Shown piece by piece: positions 30,878 through 46,744 of a DNA stretch of 64,000 bases. Every line of letters begins with the position of its first letter. Position 1 is the stretch's first letter. This stretch comes from Amorphus orientalis. Lineage in GTDB: Bacteria; Pseudomonadota; Alphaproteobacteria; Rhizobiales; Amorphaceae. The DNA is taken from positions 744,001-808,000 of the forward strand of contig NZ_JAUSUL010000002.1 of assembly GCF_030814015.1 (NCBI RefSeq), written 5' to 3'. A model generated the notes under the pieces. It made no database searches. It worked only from the letters and a program-made list of their open reading frames with translations, and was not told the origin of the DNA. A program made the translations under genes and the position numbers.

Positions 30878-32287
30878 CTATTCGGCGGCGACGCTTTCTG
30901 CGCCCTGGAGCCAGCGCGCGTAGTCCGCCCTGGCCCGCGCCGTCATCAGACGCTTCTTGGCCGCGCCCCGCGCGGACCCCGTGATCCGCTTGCCTTCGCC
31001 ATCGACCTTCGGGGCTTCCATCGGGGGAAACAGCCCGAAATTGACGTTCATCGGCTGGAAGGATCGCGGTGCGCCTTCGTCGTGCCCGACCACATGTCCG
31101 CCCGTGATGTGGCCCAGCAGGGCGCCCATGGCTGTGGTCGGTGGAGGCGCAGGCTGCGTCCGGCCGAGCCGGTCTGCGGCGGCGAACCTGCCCGCAAGCA
31201 ATCCGATCGACGCCGATTCGACATAACCCTCGCAGCCGGTGATCTGGCCGGCGAAGCGCAGCTGGGGCCGCGCCTTCAGCCGCAGGACCGGATCGAGCAG
31301 CGTCGGGGAGTTGAGATAGGTGTTGCGGTGCAGGCCGCCGAGCCGGGCGAAACGGGCGTCCTCAAGTCCGGGAATCAGGCGGAAGACGCGGGCCTGTTCG
31401 CCGTAGACGAGCTTCGTCTGGAAGCCGACCATGTTGTAGAGCGTGCCCAGGGCGTTGTCGCGGCGGAGCTGGACGACGGCGTAGGGCTTCTCGGTCGGCT
31501 TGTGGGCATTGGTCAGGCCGACCGGCTTCATCGGCCCGTGCCGGAGCGTCTCGCGGCCGCGCTCGGCCATCACCTCGATCGGCAGGCATCCGTCGAAATA
31601 GGGCGTGTCGAGCTCCCACTCGCGGAACACCGTCTTTTCGGCGGCGAGCAGCGCGTCGATGAAGGTCTCGTACTCCTCTTTCGACATCGGACAGTTGAGA
31701 TAGTCCTTGCCGGTCCCGCCGGGACCCGGCTTGTCGTAGCGGGACTGGAACCACGCCTTGTCGAGGTCGATGGAGTCGAAGTGGATGATCGGCGCGATCG
31801 CATCGAAGAAGGCCAGCGCGTCCTCACCGGTCAGGCTTCGGATGCCGTCCGCGAGCGCCGGCGAGGTCAGCGGTCCCGTCGCGATGATCGTGTCGCCCCA
31901 GTCCTCCGGCGGCAGCCCGTCGATCTCGCCCCGCTGAACCGTGACGAGCGGGTGCGCGGCCAGCGCCTCGGTCACCGCCGCCGAAAACCCGTCGCGGTCG
32001 ACGGCGAGCGCACCGCCCGCGGGCACCTGATGCCGGTCGGCCGCTGCCATGATGACGGAATCCGCATCGCGCAGCTCGGCATGGAGCAGGCCGACGGCGT
32101 TGTTCTCCGCATCGTCGGACCGGAACGAGTTGGAACAGACGAGCTCGGCCAGGCCGTCGGTCTTGTGGACCGGGGTCTCGCGCACGGGGCGCATCTCGTG
32201 GACGATGACAGGTACGCCGGCCTGAGCGATCTGCCAGGCGGCCTCGCTTCCGGCAAGGCCACCGCCGATGACGTGCAAGGGTTTCAT
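30878..32287 (-). CDS. trmFO: Methylenetetrahydrofolate-tRNA-(uracil-5-)-methyltransferase
   Basis: A 469-residue FAD enzyme that makes ribothymidine at position 54 of tRNAs using 5,10-methylene-THF. The N-terminal FAD site is [53 protein letters not shown] and [19 protein letters not shown] are TrmFO-specific, and [20 protein letters not shown] closes the FAD domain. It is convergent with the phytoene-synthase-family gene. The divergent gene to its right starts about 210 bp away. Confidence 0.96.
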
Positions 32288-32495: not shown

Positions 32496-33113
32496 GTGGT
32501 GAGTCGGCTTTTTGGCGTCTTGATGGCCGTGTCGGTGCTGGCTGGCTGCATGCAGCAGCAGGTCGGTCAGCCGTCGATGTGGTATGCGGCCAACCAGGCC
32601 GTGCCGCCGACCGCCACCAAGCTGGTCGTCTGTCACGGCTTCGGCTGTGCGCGCAGGACATCGGTCTCGCTCAGCCCCAAGAACCTGGAAAAGCTCCGTG
32701 CCATCCTGGTGCGCGGTCGGTCGTCGCCGGAGGCGGAACGTCGGGCCATCGGCAAGGCGGTTGCCTGGATGGAGCGCACCGTGGCGCCCACGGTCGGATC
32801 GGAAGGGGATATCGGCGGCCTCGACATCTGGAATTCCGGCGTGGCCGGCCAGATGGACTGTATCGACGAATCGACCAACACGACGAGCTATCTGCTGCTT
32901 GCCGAAAAGCGCGGCTTCCTGAAGCATCACACCGTTCAGCGTCCGGTTGCTCGCGGATTCTTCCTCGACGGGCGCTATCCGCACGCGACCGCGGTGATCT
33001 CCGAGGCCGAAACGGGCGAGCGGTTCGCCGTCGATTCGTGGCGCAAGGCGAACGGCGAGCTGCCCATCATCATGCCTCTGCAGACCTGGTTCGACGAGAA
33101 GCCGAGCGTGTGA
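32496..33113 (+). CDS. Putative lipoprotein of unknown function
   Basis: About 205 residues. GTG codons at 32496 or 32499 follow AGAAAGG at 32481-32487. The N-terminus is a lipoprotein signal, LFGVLMAVSVLAGC, with the lipobox LAGC, so the mature protein should be lipid-anchored. The body contains KLVVCHGFGCARRTSVSLSP, QMDCIDESTNTTSYLLLAEK and HATAVISEAETGERFAVDSW. The C-x5-C pair and DCIDEST recall cysteine-containing peptidase-like folds, but I cannot assign a family. Composition is like that of its neighbours. Confidence 0.7.
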   Translation: MVSRLFGVLMAVSVLAGCMQQQVGQPSMWYAANQAVPPTATKLVVCHGFGCARRTSVSLSPKNLEKLRAILVRGRSSPEAERRAIGKAVAWMERTVAPTVGSEGDIGGLDIWNSGVAGQMDCIDESTNTTSYLLLAEKRGFLKHHTVQRPVARGFFLDGRYPHATAVISEAETGERFAVDSWRKANGELPIIMPLQTWFDEKPSV

Positions 33114-33122
33114 GGCGCGCGC

Positions 33123-34202
33123 TCAGGTCTGTCGGCTCGGATCGCCCGCCGAAAAGGTCCGGTCGGACAGGTTGAGCCGGCCGGCCGCGATCCGGCGCAC
33201 GCGGTCGCGCGCGGTGGCGTCGGCCTCGCTGGCGTCGAGATCGTCCAGGAGATTGCGGGCCACCAGCGTGAGGAGGTCGCGGCGGGGCGCGCCGTCCGCC
33301 GTCTCCGGCAGGGCATCGACCGGCTGGACGAGATCGGGTGTGCCGGGTGCTCCCAGCGATTCCCGGCACCAGGACTGGAGTTCGGCCGGATCGGCCGCGC
33401 CATGGGTCTCAACGAAGGCGTAGAGCCCGGCACCGTGGCGCGGATAGGGATAGCTGGCCACCACTGCGCGCGCGACATTCGGGTGAGCCTCGAGGCGCTC
33501 CTCGAGCCTTGCGCCGTACTCGCGCAGCCGGTCGTGTCCGCCTTCGCCGTCTGACCAGGAGAAGAGATCGCGGGTCACGGTGTTGTAGACGCGCTTGCCG
33601 GTCGCCATCCAGATGCGCGTCGGCAGGCTCTTGCGGGCCAGCACCGCACGCTCGCGCGGGGTGAGGGCGTCGGGACAGTAGCGGCGCTTGTGCTTGAGGA
33701 GGTGGCGCAGATCCTCGTAGGCGAGAACCCGGAAGAGCTTGCCCCGTCGGCGGAAGACGCTGGCGAGCTGGAAATCGATCAGCGCGGGGGTGCCGTCGGC
33801 AAGCCGCAGCCAGTTCTGCTGCTTGGCGAGGTCGTTGTGCACGACGCCGCGCCGGTGCAGCGCATGGAGCCGGCGCTTGGCTTCCCGGAAAAAGGCGGTG
33901 TCGCCGGTCGGCTGGGCGATGTGCAGCGGCACGCCGGACAGCCAGGAGCGGTAAAGATGGGTGCGGTCGGCCGCCACGAGCTGGGGGACACCCTCCAGAC
34001 CCGCCAGCCTGCGCAGGGCGCGGCGCTCGTGCCAGGCGAGCAGATGCGCCAGCGGCCTGGACCAGACCGGCGTCGGACCGACGTCGCGCTCCACCACCGT
34101 CGCCGGGCCGAGACGGCCGAGGGTCACCCGGCTGAAGACGTCGCTCTTCAGGACGCTTTCCGGCTCGAACGATGCAGCGGGGGCGGGGGTGTTGGCATCC
34201 AA
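33123..34202 (-). CDS. RIO/Ser-Thr kinase-like domain fused to an AMP-binding-enzyme C-terminal domain
   Basis: A 359-residue protein of two parts. Residues about 20-215 look like a small protein-kinase fold: a catalytic-loop-like HRRGVVHNDLAKQQNWL (H122-N123-D124) and a metal-binding IDFQLA (D143). The beta-3 lysine expected near residues 37-40 reads VVERDVG, with no Lys. Residues about 235-325 resemble the C-terminal domain of acyl-CoA synthetases (LEAHPNVARAVVASYPYPRHGAGLYAFVET), but the usual T-x-x-G-K motif is TADGAPRRDL, lacking the catalytic Lys. It may be a regulatory or sensing protein. Partner and substrate are unknown. Convergent with the lipoprotein gene. Confidence 0.75.
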   Translation of the reverse strand: MDANTPAPAASFEPESVLKSDVFSRVTLGRLGPATVVERDVGPTPVWSRPLAHLLAWHERRALRRLAGLEGVPQLVAADRTHLYRSWLSGVPLHIAQPTGDTAFFREAKRRLHALHRRGVVHNDLAKQQNWLRLADGTPALIDFQLASVFRRRGKLFRVLAYEDLRHLLKHKRRYCPDALTPRERAVLARKSLPTRIWMATGKRVYNTVTRDLFSWSDGEGGHDRLREYGARLEERLEAHPNVARAVVASYPYPRHGAGLYAFVETHGAADPAELQSWCRESLGAPGTPDLVQPVDALPETADGAPRRDLLTLVARNLLDDLDASEADATARDRVRRIAAGRLNLSDRTFSAGDPSRQT

Positions 34203-34811: not shown

Positions 34812-37694
<2,883 letters not shown>

Positions 37695-45653: not shown

Positions 45654-46202
45654 ATGTTCCTCCGCATCGCCGCCGCCGCGGCCCTTGCTCTGGCCTTCAT
45701 CGTTCCGGCCGCCGCTCAGAGCGCGCCGACGCCCGAAAACACCCTGGTCCTGGAAACCAACAAGGGGACCGTCGAGATCGCGCTTCGGCCGGATCTCGCC
45801 CCCAACCACGTGGAGCGGATCAAGCAGCTCGCCCGTGACGGGTTCTATGACGGCGTCGTCTTTCACCGGGTGATCGACAATTTCATGGCCCAGACCGGCG
45901 ACCCGACCGGTACCGGCACCGGCGGCTCTGACTATCCGGACCTGAAGGCCGAGTTCACCCCGACCCCCTACGAGCGCGGCACCGTCGGCATGGCGCGGGC
46001 CCAGAGCCCGGACAGCGCCAATTCGCAGTTCTTCATCATGTTCAACCGCGTGGACAGCCTCGACGGCAAATACACCGTCTTCGGTGAGGTCATCGACGGC
46101 ATGGACGTGGTGGATTCCATCAAGAAGGGCTCGCGCAGCGCCAACGGCCAGGTCTCCGATCCGGACCGGATCGAGAGTGCCTATATCGCGGCTGACCGGT
46201 AA
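45654..46202 (+). CDS. ppiA: Periplasmic peptidyl-prolyl cis-trans isomerase (cyclophilin)
   Basis: A 182-residue cyclophilin with a signal peptide (FLRIAAAAALALAFIVPAAA, cleavage after about residue 21). Core motifs are YDGVVFHRVIDNFMAQTGDP, GTVGMARAQSPDSANSQFFI and YTVFGEVIDGMDVVDSI. It folds secreted proteins by proline isomerisation. It is a close paralogue of the next gene, differing mainly in the signal peptide and a short C-terminal insert (SRSANGQVS). Confidence 0.94.
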   Translation: MFLRIAAAAALALAFIVPAAAQSAPTPENTLVLETNKGTVEIALRPDLAPNHVERIKQLARDGFYDGVVFHRVIDNFMAQTGDPTGTGTGGSDYPDLKAEFTPTPYERGTVGMARAQSPDSANSQFFIMFNRVDSLDGKYTVFGEVIDGMDVVDSIKKGSRSANGQVSDPDRIESAYIAADR

Positions 46203-46279
46203 GCCACCGCGCGCCAGATAATTCAATGCGACCGTGTCCGGCTCTCCTCGAGCCGGACCTCAACCCAAGGAGACCCGAC

Positions 46280-46744
46280 GTGGCGGATGCCGAGAACACC
46301 CTGGTCCTGGAGACCACCAAAGGACGCGTGACGATCGAGATGAAGCCGGATGTGGCTCCGAACCACGTCGCCCGCATCAAGGAACTCGTGCGGGACGGCT
46401 TCTATGACGGCATCGTCTTTCACCGCGTGATCGATGGCTTCATGGCCCAGACCGGCTGCCCCCGCGGCAACGGAACCGGTGGCTCCGGCAAGAAGCTGAA
46501 GCAGGAGTTCAACGACGCGCCTCACGAGCGCGGAACCGTCTCCATGGCCCGGACCCAGGACCCGGACTCCGGCGACAGCCAGTTCTTCATCTGCTTCGAC
46601 CGCCATCCCTTCCTGGACCGCCAGTACACGGTCTGGGGTCAGGTCACCGAGGGCATGGACGCCGTCGACCAGATCAAGCGCGGCGAGCCGGTTGCCGATC
46701 CCGACCGGATCGAGAAGGCCCACATCGCCGCCGACGCGGCGTGA
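46280..46744 (+). CDS. ppiB: Cytoplasmic peptidyl-prolyl cis-trans isomerase (cyclophilin)
   Basis: A 154-residue cyclophilin without a signal peptide. GTG 46280 lies 7 bases after AAGGAG (46267-46272). It has [40 protein letters not shown] and [20 protein letters not shown]. With the preceding gene it forms a tandem periplasm/cytoplasm pair. Its stop overlaps the queA start (GTGA). Confidence 0.95.

Follow-up and report, generated by a model that had tools for sequence, protein, structure and literature searches.

Arginine in the beta-3 lysine slot of a kinase-like protein from Amorphus orientalis with an acetyl-CoA-synthetase-type C-terminal domain

The beta-3 lysine is routinely used for calling kinases dead, and an open reading frame (ORF) of Amorphus orientalis raises the question of what a protein does in which a kinase-like domain lacking this lysine is joined to a C-terminal domain of the acetyl-CoA synthetase (Acs) type, which likewise lacks the catalytic lysine at its canonical place. 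The ORF lies in the window, by which we mean the whole analysed stretch of 64,000 nucleotides. A sequence-only reading had picked out the motifs HRRGVVHNDLAKQQNW, IDFQLA, VVERD and DGAPRR, all of which are present in the translated ORF, and had proposed a sensor or scaffold that borrows both folds.

The gene, its family and its surroundings

33123..34202, minus strand: whole gene, 359 amino acids, kinase-like plus acetyl-CoA-synthetase-type C-terminal domain (from the ORF and the NF006620/PRK09188 match)

The minus-strand ORF comprises 359 codons beginning with TTG, 5' of which a GGAGAG stretch is found, and it is real and no chance ORF, because it is conserved in relatives and dN stays well under dS. 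Identity amounts to 75% to the homologue in the single further Amorphus genome searched and to 76% to the homologue of Amorphus coralli, the nearest named relative among the best 80 kept of at least 541. Values of dN 0.14 and dS 0.94 were obtained for the kinase domain and of dN 0.18 and dS 1.08 for the C-domain. Compared with L002, the closest relative, pN/pS is 0.130/0.537 in the kinase domain and 0.156/0.573 over C-domain residues 228-318, residues 319-350 being looser (0.286/0.385). Over 4282 pairs, chosen by dropping those more than 90% alike in the kinase, identity averages 0.58 in the kinase domain and 0.46 in the C-domain.

The NCBIfam model NF006620/PRK09188, termed "serine/threonine protein kinase", matches residues 5-349 with positions 13-360 of its 365 (E 5e-130) and has the two-domain architecture in common with the window protein. 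The score of 433.8 bits is below the curated equivalog cut-off of 490, which among six other fused members scanned is surpassed by L098 (611) and L136 (580) and not reached by L045 (450), L063 (444), L002 (431) and L033 (326); G043, a homologue from the genome survey, is also over it. By these matches the window protein belongs to the same clade as NF006620/PRK09188, and it is not certified as the same equivalog. The kinase-only model NF008910/PRK12274, which shares the kinase domain but is devoid of the Acs domain, gives 226 bits at a cut-off of 372; its members over the cut-off (L035-L038) have both of the residues discussed below, Lys19 and Arg39. Thus, where the sequence-only reading knew of no characterised function for such a combination, a literature search by family or model name or by architecture indeed found no study of the family's function, but the fusion of a kinase with an Acs C-domain is already known as annotation (PRK09188). 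What is new, at the level of sequence, is that the lysine slot has a fixed arginine and that a lysine of the glycine loop is invariant alongside it.

Of the Pfam kinase models, Pkinase (PF00069) aligns with residues 106-155 only, at 18.5 bits versus a gathering score of 31.7, and none of Kdo/WaaP (PF06293), RIO1 (PF01163) and APH (PF01636) matches the window protein, even with E values of up to 10 allowed. Elsewhere, PF06293 matches five of the six other clade members scanned, all under the gathering score, RIO1 is passed only by the outgroup proteins L054 and L055, and APH is just passed by the clade member L063 (24.4 versus 23.2), with two others matching under the cut-off. PADLOC (best E 0.0007, to a kinase motif) and PHROGs (best E 0.015) produced only weak matches, on which ground a phage or defence gene was rejected.

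A contig scan recovered at least 541 relatives among at least 591 pattern matches, the best 80 of which, the ones kept, derive from Rhizobiales, Rhodobacterales and other Alphaproteobacteria; Brucella, Bartonella, Bradyrhizobium and marine Roseobacter-group bacteria are all represented in the clade. The distribution is patchy. Four full-length homologues (G000, G001, G043 and G084) occur among the matches listed for 101 genomes mostly of the same order, where a fifth, G057, is aligned over residues 10-187 only (34%), and class-wide, matches at E 1e-30 were found in 4 of 385 genomes, including the window genome and the unfused L034. Nine different kinase-only members are known in our sample, eight from another class (probably Gammaproteobacteria, judged by likeness) and L034 from the window's class.

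The gene is located between trmFO (30878-32287, minus strand) and a uvrA gene ending at 34812 (minus strand), both over the NCBI cut-off. A short ORF between trmFO and the kinase gene (32523-33113, plus strand) has, by eye, a lipobox-like start, LAGCMQQQ, and gave no match in a Pfam scan (best E 0.27); its homologue adjoins the kinase gene in L002 and L058, and it was matched in 3 of 80 named loci. In the neighbour survey of these 80 loci, 67 of which have full flanks, queries for trmFO were matched in 11, for uvrD in 26, for rluA in 29 and for an aldehyde dehydrogenase (named by eye) in 32, and queries for LpxB, PAP2, DedA and ACP in 0 of 80 at E 1e-10. As neighbours vary by lineage across the 80 named loci and form no consistent pathway, reading the function from the gene neighbours was rejected. 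Elsewhere in the window, two adjacent plus-strand ORFs (45654-46744) resemble each other in an early segment, ENTLVLET(N/T)KG; they are apparent tandem paralogues and by eye perhaps peptidyl-prolyl isomerases.

A few loci are organized differently. In one genome belonging to the window's class (L156, 4189-10579), the gene of the fused kinase L033 is flanked by a PAP2 gene on one side and by lpxB, in divergent orientation, on the other; beyond lpxB come lpxD, an ACP gene and, by eye, a beta-ketoacyl-synthase-like gene. In L158 (5360-8599) and L159 (5373-8707), from two congeneric genomes outside this class (by likeness probably Gammaproteobacteria), a kinase-only gene directly precedes a DUF2867-type gene, stop and start touching, and stands divergent to a large gene. 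In L158 the former neighbour carries a DUF2867 domain and the latter VTT (DedA), PAP2 and LssY domains, the genes of L159 being named by likeness. The link to a lipid substrate offered by the neighbours of L033 and in L158 is a lead, no more.

The kinase-like domain: Arg39, Lys19 and the catalytic residues

33540..34175, minus strand: kinase-like domain, residues about 10-221 (AlphaFold2 model, AfRio2 and CurKC matches)
34131..34151, minus strand: glycine-rich-loop equivalent LKSDVFS, residues 18-24 (beta-1 end and turn to beta-2 in the model)
34080..34094, minus strand: end of beta-3, VERDV, residues 37-41, with Arg39 in the catalytic-lysine slot (alignments, StkP/CurKC profile)
34026..34028, minus strand: Glu59 in helix C (46-65), invariant in 103/103 clade and 20/20 outgroup proteins
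33807..33839, minus strand: catalytic loop HNDLAKQQNWL, residues 122-132 (invariant residues)
33768..33776, minus strand: metal-site motif DFQ, residues 143-145 (clade conservation)

According to an AlphaFold2 model built from 76 aligned sequences (mean pLDDT 90.5, pTM 0.74), the protein is folded into two lobes like a protein kinase, and beta-3, helix C, the catalytic loop and DFx are all present. The model places beta-1 at 12-20, beta-2 at 25-31, beta-3 at 34-40 and helix C at 46-65, followed by a short C-lobe and then the second domain. VIA-align ranks Archaeoglobus fulgidus Rio2 at the top (AfRio2, 1tqi; Z 18.8, 179 residues, 4.3 A), together with the lanthipeptide synthetase kinase CurKC (7wj6; Z 17.9, 179 residues, 2.8 A, 26% identity) as best matches, so that the fold is shared with RIO and LanKC kinases; Foldseek lists the lanthipeptide synthetase 8sam first and then mostly CK2, and a profile of clade plus outgroup finds CurKC first, StkP second and Rio2 third among solved chains. 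The LPS heptose kinase WaaP is reportedly likewise a small bacterial kinase, RIO-like and with a short activation loop, whose C-lobe binds acyl-ACP; it keeps Lys51, whereas the window clade is without a beta-3 lysine.

For the comparison of residues, 110 kinase-bearing loci recognized by profile, equal to 104 different proteins, were supplemented with 19 further loci from a search of one other class, and 26 loci matching only in the C-domain were left out. The resulting sample of 123 contains 103 clade members and 20 outgroup kinases. A tree computed for 51 of them, 31 from the clade and all 20 of the outgroup, separates the two groups by one branch (100/99). The scan patterns for the named loci excluded positions 19 and 39.

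At the beta-3 lysine column, arginine is found in 103/103 clade members and lysine in 20/20 outgroup kinases. A clade-only profile has lysine in the slot in all outgroup rows that it covers (11 of 20), and a second MAFFT alignment does so in 18/20, L154 and L155 being shifted with their lysine plain in the sequence (VIKDY and VVKDY). In a wider profile, StkP and CurKC, two kinases of solved structure, have their beta-3 lysine in the column of Arg39. By all these alignments, Arg39 is a clear change of the clade. The sequence-only reading had placed VVERD at the lysine position, correctly as regards the absence of lysine, although the residue in the slot is Arg39 and not Glu38.

The remainder of the active site is kept. 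Glu59 corresponds to the helix-C glutamate, the partner of the beta-3 basic residue in kinases. H122, N123, D124, K127 and N130 of the catalytic loop are invariant in the 103 clade members, as are D143 and Q145 of the metal-site motif, with F144 present in 95/103. The loss of the kinase lysine and the retention of HND and D143, which the sequence-only reading suggested checking among homologues, are hence general to the clade, with the exception of F144.

The glycine-rich loop is the second place of change. Lys19 and Asp21 occur in 103/103 clade members, and position 24 is serine in 91, glycine in 11 and asparagine in 1. We take position 19 to be the first glycine of the GxGxFG loop, with LKSDVFSRV matched to LGTGSFGRV of PKA. 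Asp21 falls on the important second glycine position, unusual for an ATP site. CurKC keeps its beta-3 lysine, in contrast to the window clade with Arg39 and invariant Lys19. The suspicion that the lysines might be present at shifted positions is therewith partly borne out for the kinase, Lys19 being invariant in all 103 clade members, with a role that is putative.

Absence of the beta-3 lysine combined with a lysine in the glycine-rich loop, as in all 103 clade members, is the pattern of WNK kinases, which use a glycine-loop lysine (PMC4718504); the WNK loop lysine is located at the third glycine position, however, and Lys19 at the first. One outgroup row, L140, aligns a lysine at position 19 in both MAFFT alignments and in the profile, as well as in BLAST against the window protein and against L040, and carries both lysines (beta-3 and position 19) in all three alignments. 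The tree places L140 next to the clade (91/83); its branch is very long (1.88), however, and its composition is odd, so the both-lysine state, coming from one long-branched sequence, is a hint. Its order holds only the genome of L140 itself, and a search of 398 genomes for its relatives gave 9 matches, each of them to the window itself, to a row already in the alignment or to a single genome sampled before. In addition, a lysine precedes the beta-3 lysine by 20-25 residues, the clade spacing, in 10/20 rows of the outgroup, whose loops align poorly; only the lysine of L140 aligns with Lys19, and the outgroup lysines are not conserved. Lysines at this spacing make a migration of the lysine somewhat less likely. 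That this proteobacterial clade is the bacterial counterpart of WNK, its ATP-binding lysine having moved from beta-3 to the start of the glycine loop (Lys39 to Arg39, with Lys19), with L140 as a living both-lysine relative and the Acs C-domain gained later in Alphaproteobacteria as a ligand- or partner-sensing module, is accordingly a tentative proposal that we consider rather doubtful.

The same observations bear on an active kinase in which Arg39 alone would replace the lysine as in choline kinases, and Lys19 would serve substrate binding or loop structure with no migration involved. Arg39 and Glu59 are both invariant, choline kinases stay functional with arginine at the slot (PMC1821047), and loop-region lysines are present in half of the outgroup rows that keep the beta-3 lysine. 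Yet Lys19 is as invariant in the clade as Arg39, and the outgroup lysines are not conserved; this explanation, which overlaps with the one we favour and differs only in the role of Lys19, seems unlikely to us.

The acetyl-CoA-synthetase-type C-terminal domain

33165..33521, minus strand: acetyl-CoA-synthetase C-terminal domain, residues 228-346 (PF13193 and structure matches)
33279..33299, minus strand: degenerate A10 motif ADGAPRR, residues 302-308, catalytic-lysine slot Ala305 (94 fused members compared)
33159..33179, minus strand: family-specific tail RLNLSDR, residues 342-348 (94 fused members compared)

AMP-binding_C (PF13193) matches residues 233-304 with E 7e-11 and 43.3 bits, above the gathering score of 24.5, and the modelled domain superimposes on Acs C-domains in VIA-align: 8w0h (Z 16.6, 117 residues, 2.2 A), 8sf3 (Z 16.4, 118 residues, 1.9 A, starting at 224) and 5jrh (Z 15.6, 115 residues, 30% identity, model residues 222-341). 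The fold of the AcsA C-terminal domain is thus common over the whole domain, at 1.9-2.2 A over 117-118 residues in the two closest cases, and the 135-residue Acs chain 4u5y_D is matched by sequence (E 6e-11). The fusion of a kinase-like domain to an AMP-binding-C-type domain, as originally read, is confirmed by the Pfam score and the structures, and the reservation that the C-terminal part might be something else falls away. Unlike Acs, the window protein has no N-terminal adenylation domain, as Pfam reports only AMP-binding_C and the weak Pkinase match.

In four other fused members, PF13193 is passed by L136 and gives no match at E up to 1 in L045, L063 and L098; because of these three, the C-domain appears to have diverged far in other fused members. 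L033, an early-branching member, matches acetate-CoA ligase models with E 1e-24 and 5e-26 and Acs chains with 5e-25, suggesting that the C-domain came from Acs. A C-domain tree has the fused rows on one side of a branch versus 26 Acs rows (98/88, with a bootstrap that had not settled); it fits one capture from Acs or two, with L033 separate, and nothing outside Acs roots it.

The lysine of the A10 motif has a different fate from that of the kinase. Among 94 different fused proteins, the slot is lysine in 12, another residue in 77 and part of a deleted loop in 5. The residues following the A10 glycine are T 26, S 14, K 12, A 10, R 7, E 7, M 4 and N 4, with Q 2, I 1, L 1 and H 1 as the rarer ones. 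By this comparison, the adenylation lysine of the Acs-derived domain is not maintained. The sequence-only reading, which saw DGAPRR in place of the synthetase G-K motif, was right about the window protein, where Ala305 occupies the slot. Its more general statement that both catalytic lysines are missing applies to the canonical positions, but the kinase change is fixed in the clade and the synthetase lysine is variable and present in L002. The A10 loop is lost in five fused kinases of the Rhodobacterales group (L103, L111, L115, L129 and L132), which keep the sequence after the loop.

The tail of the domain, RxNxxDR, is conserved among the fused proteins and absent from the Acs chains compared, with R342 in 94/94 and N344, D347 and R348 in 93/94 fused members; L033 has only the first arginine. 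Since the A10 lysine is not maintained, yet purifying selection acts and RxNxxDR is near-invariant, the C-domain is probably a non-catalytic binding or regulatory module.

Alternatively, the C-domain might act in trans on Acs or another acyl-CoA synthetase, as a decoy for the lysine acetyltransferase of that synthetase or as a competitor of the synthetase's own C-domain, and the kinase domain would then direct or control it. The domain is Acs-like and the window genome has a separate C-domain match inside a 723-aa frame, which could be accommodated by such an action; a lysine decoy misfits most members, however, as the slot holds the target lysine in the minority counted above and lacks the loop altogether in five, so we regard an action of this kind as improbable.

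A pseudogene was rejected on the open frame, the conservation and the purifying selection. The related idea that the fusion is decaying towards a pseudogene would draw on the A10 residue that differs between the two closest relatives, Ala305 here and lysine in L002, and on the patchy clade with its four full-length representatives among the matches listed for 101 genomes. It is hardly credible against an open frame, the low pN relative to pS towards L002 in both domains, the invariant residues and the conserved tail.

Kinase activity and the use of the two domains

By comparison of the residues kept and changed, the protein is probably functional as a kinase and not dead. Arg39, the changed loop KxDxFS and DFQ for DFG, with the other catalytic residues kept, form a choline-kinase-like pattern which favours an active kinase. 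As described by Kannan et al. (2007; PMC1821047), arginine occupies the beta-3 slot in most choline/aminoglycoside-kinase subfamilies, correlated changes of the glycine loop and DFG occur in two such subfamilies, the loop takes over the charge in WNK and in one chloro subfamily, and exchange of the choline kinase beta-3 arginine for alanine leads to a several-fold loss in rate. Choline/aminoglycoside-type kinases and WNK likewise have lost the beta-3 lysine, with a basic substitute and glycine-loop changes, and the DFG glycine is changed in choline kinases also, to DFE, where the window clade has DFQ (DxQ in 103/103; comparison based on PMC1821047). From the choline-kinase set of the Arg72 type, which combines the arginine with DFG Gly to Glu and loop Gly55 to Asn, only Arg39 is shared.

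The sensor or scaffold of the sequence-only reading would be a pseudokinase with both folds kept for binding only, perhaps sensing ATP/ADP plus an acyl metabolite. It could appeal to the canonical beta-3 lysine, absent in 103/103 clade members, to the A10 lysine that is not maintained in the C-domain, and to a 2025 review (PMC12599244) which classes bacterial families with arginine at beta-3 as pseudokinases, the missing beta-3 lysine being one criterion for the designation, and in which models suggest ATP binding. A scaffold, on the other hand, need not retain a catalytic Asp, the two metal ligands (Asn and Asp) and the glutamate of helix C, all of which are invariant in 103/103 members, and the second basic residue, at the loop, is invariant as well. 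Weakened by these residues and by the arginine of choline kinases (PMC1821047), the pseudokinase is a reading to which we assign a low probability.

A catalytically competent small kinase of RIO/LanKC/LPS-kinase-like type, with a rearranged ATP site and a captured Acs C-domain that is now non-catalytic, is what we cautiously favour. We infer kinase activity, the roles of Lys19 and Arg39 and the role of the C-domain in the following way. Arg39 of beta-3 would pair with Glu59 and, together with the glycine-loop Lys19, would hold the ATP phosphates, with the metal held by Asn130 and Asp143 and Asp124 acting as putative catalytic base. The short C-lobe, free of a long activation segment, may receive a small-molecule, lipid-headgroup or protein substrate, and the Acs-derived domain would serve in binding or regulation, its counterpart being another protein or an acyl or adenylate ligand.

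The catalogue name 'serine/threonine protein kinase' hides the change in the arginine slot as well as the recycled C-domain. In this family, an Acs C-domain has apparently been recycled as a module without its catalytic lysine, and this widespread clade, with its possible both-lysine relative, would be a tractable natural test of how the beta-3 lysine can be replaced or moved.
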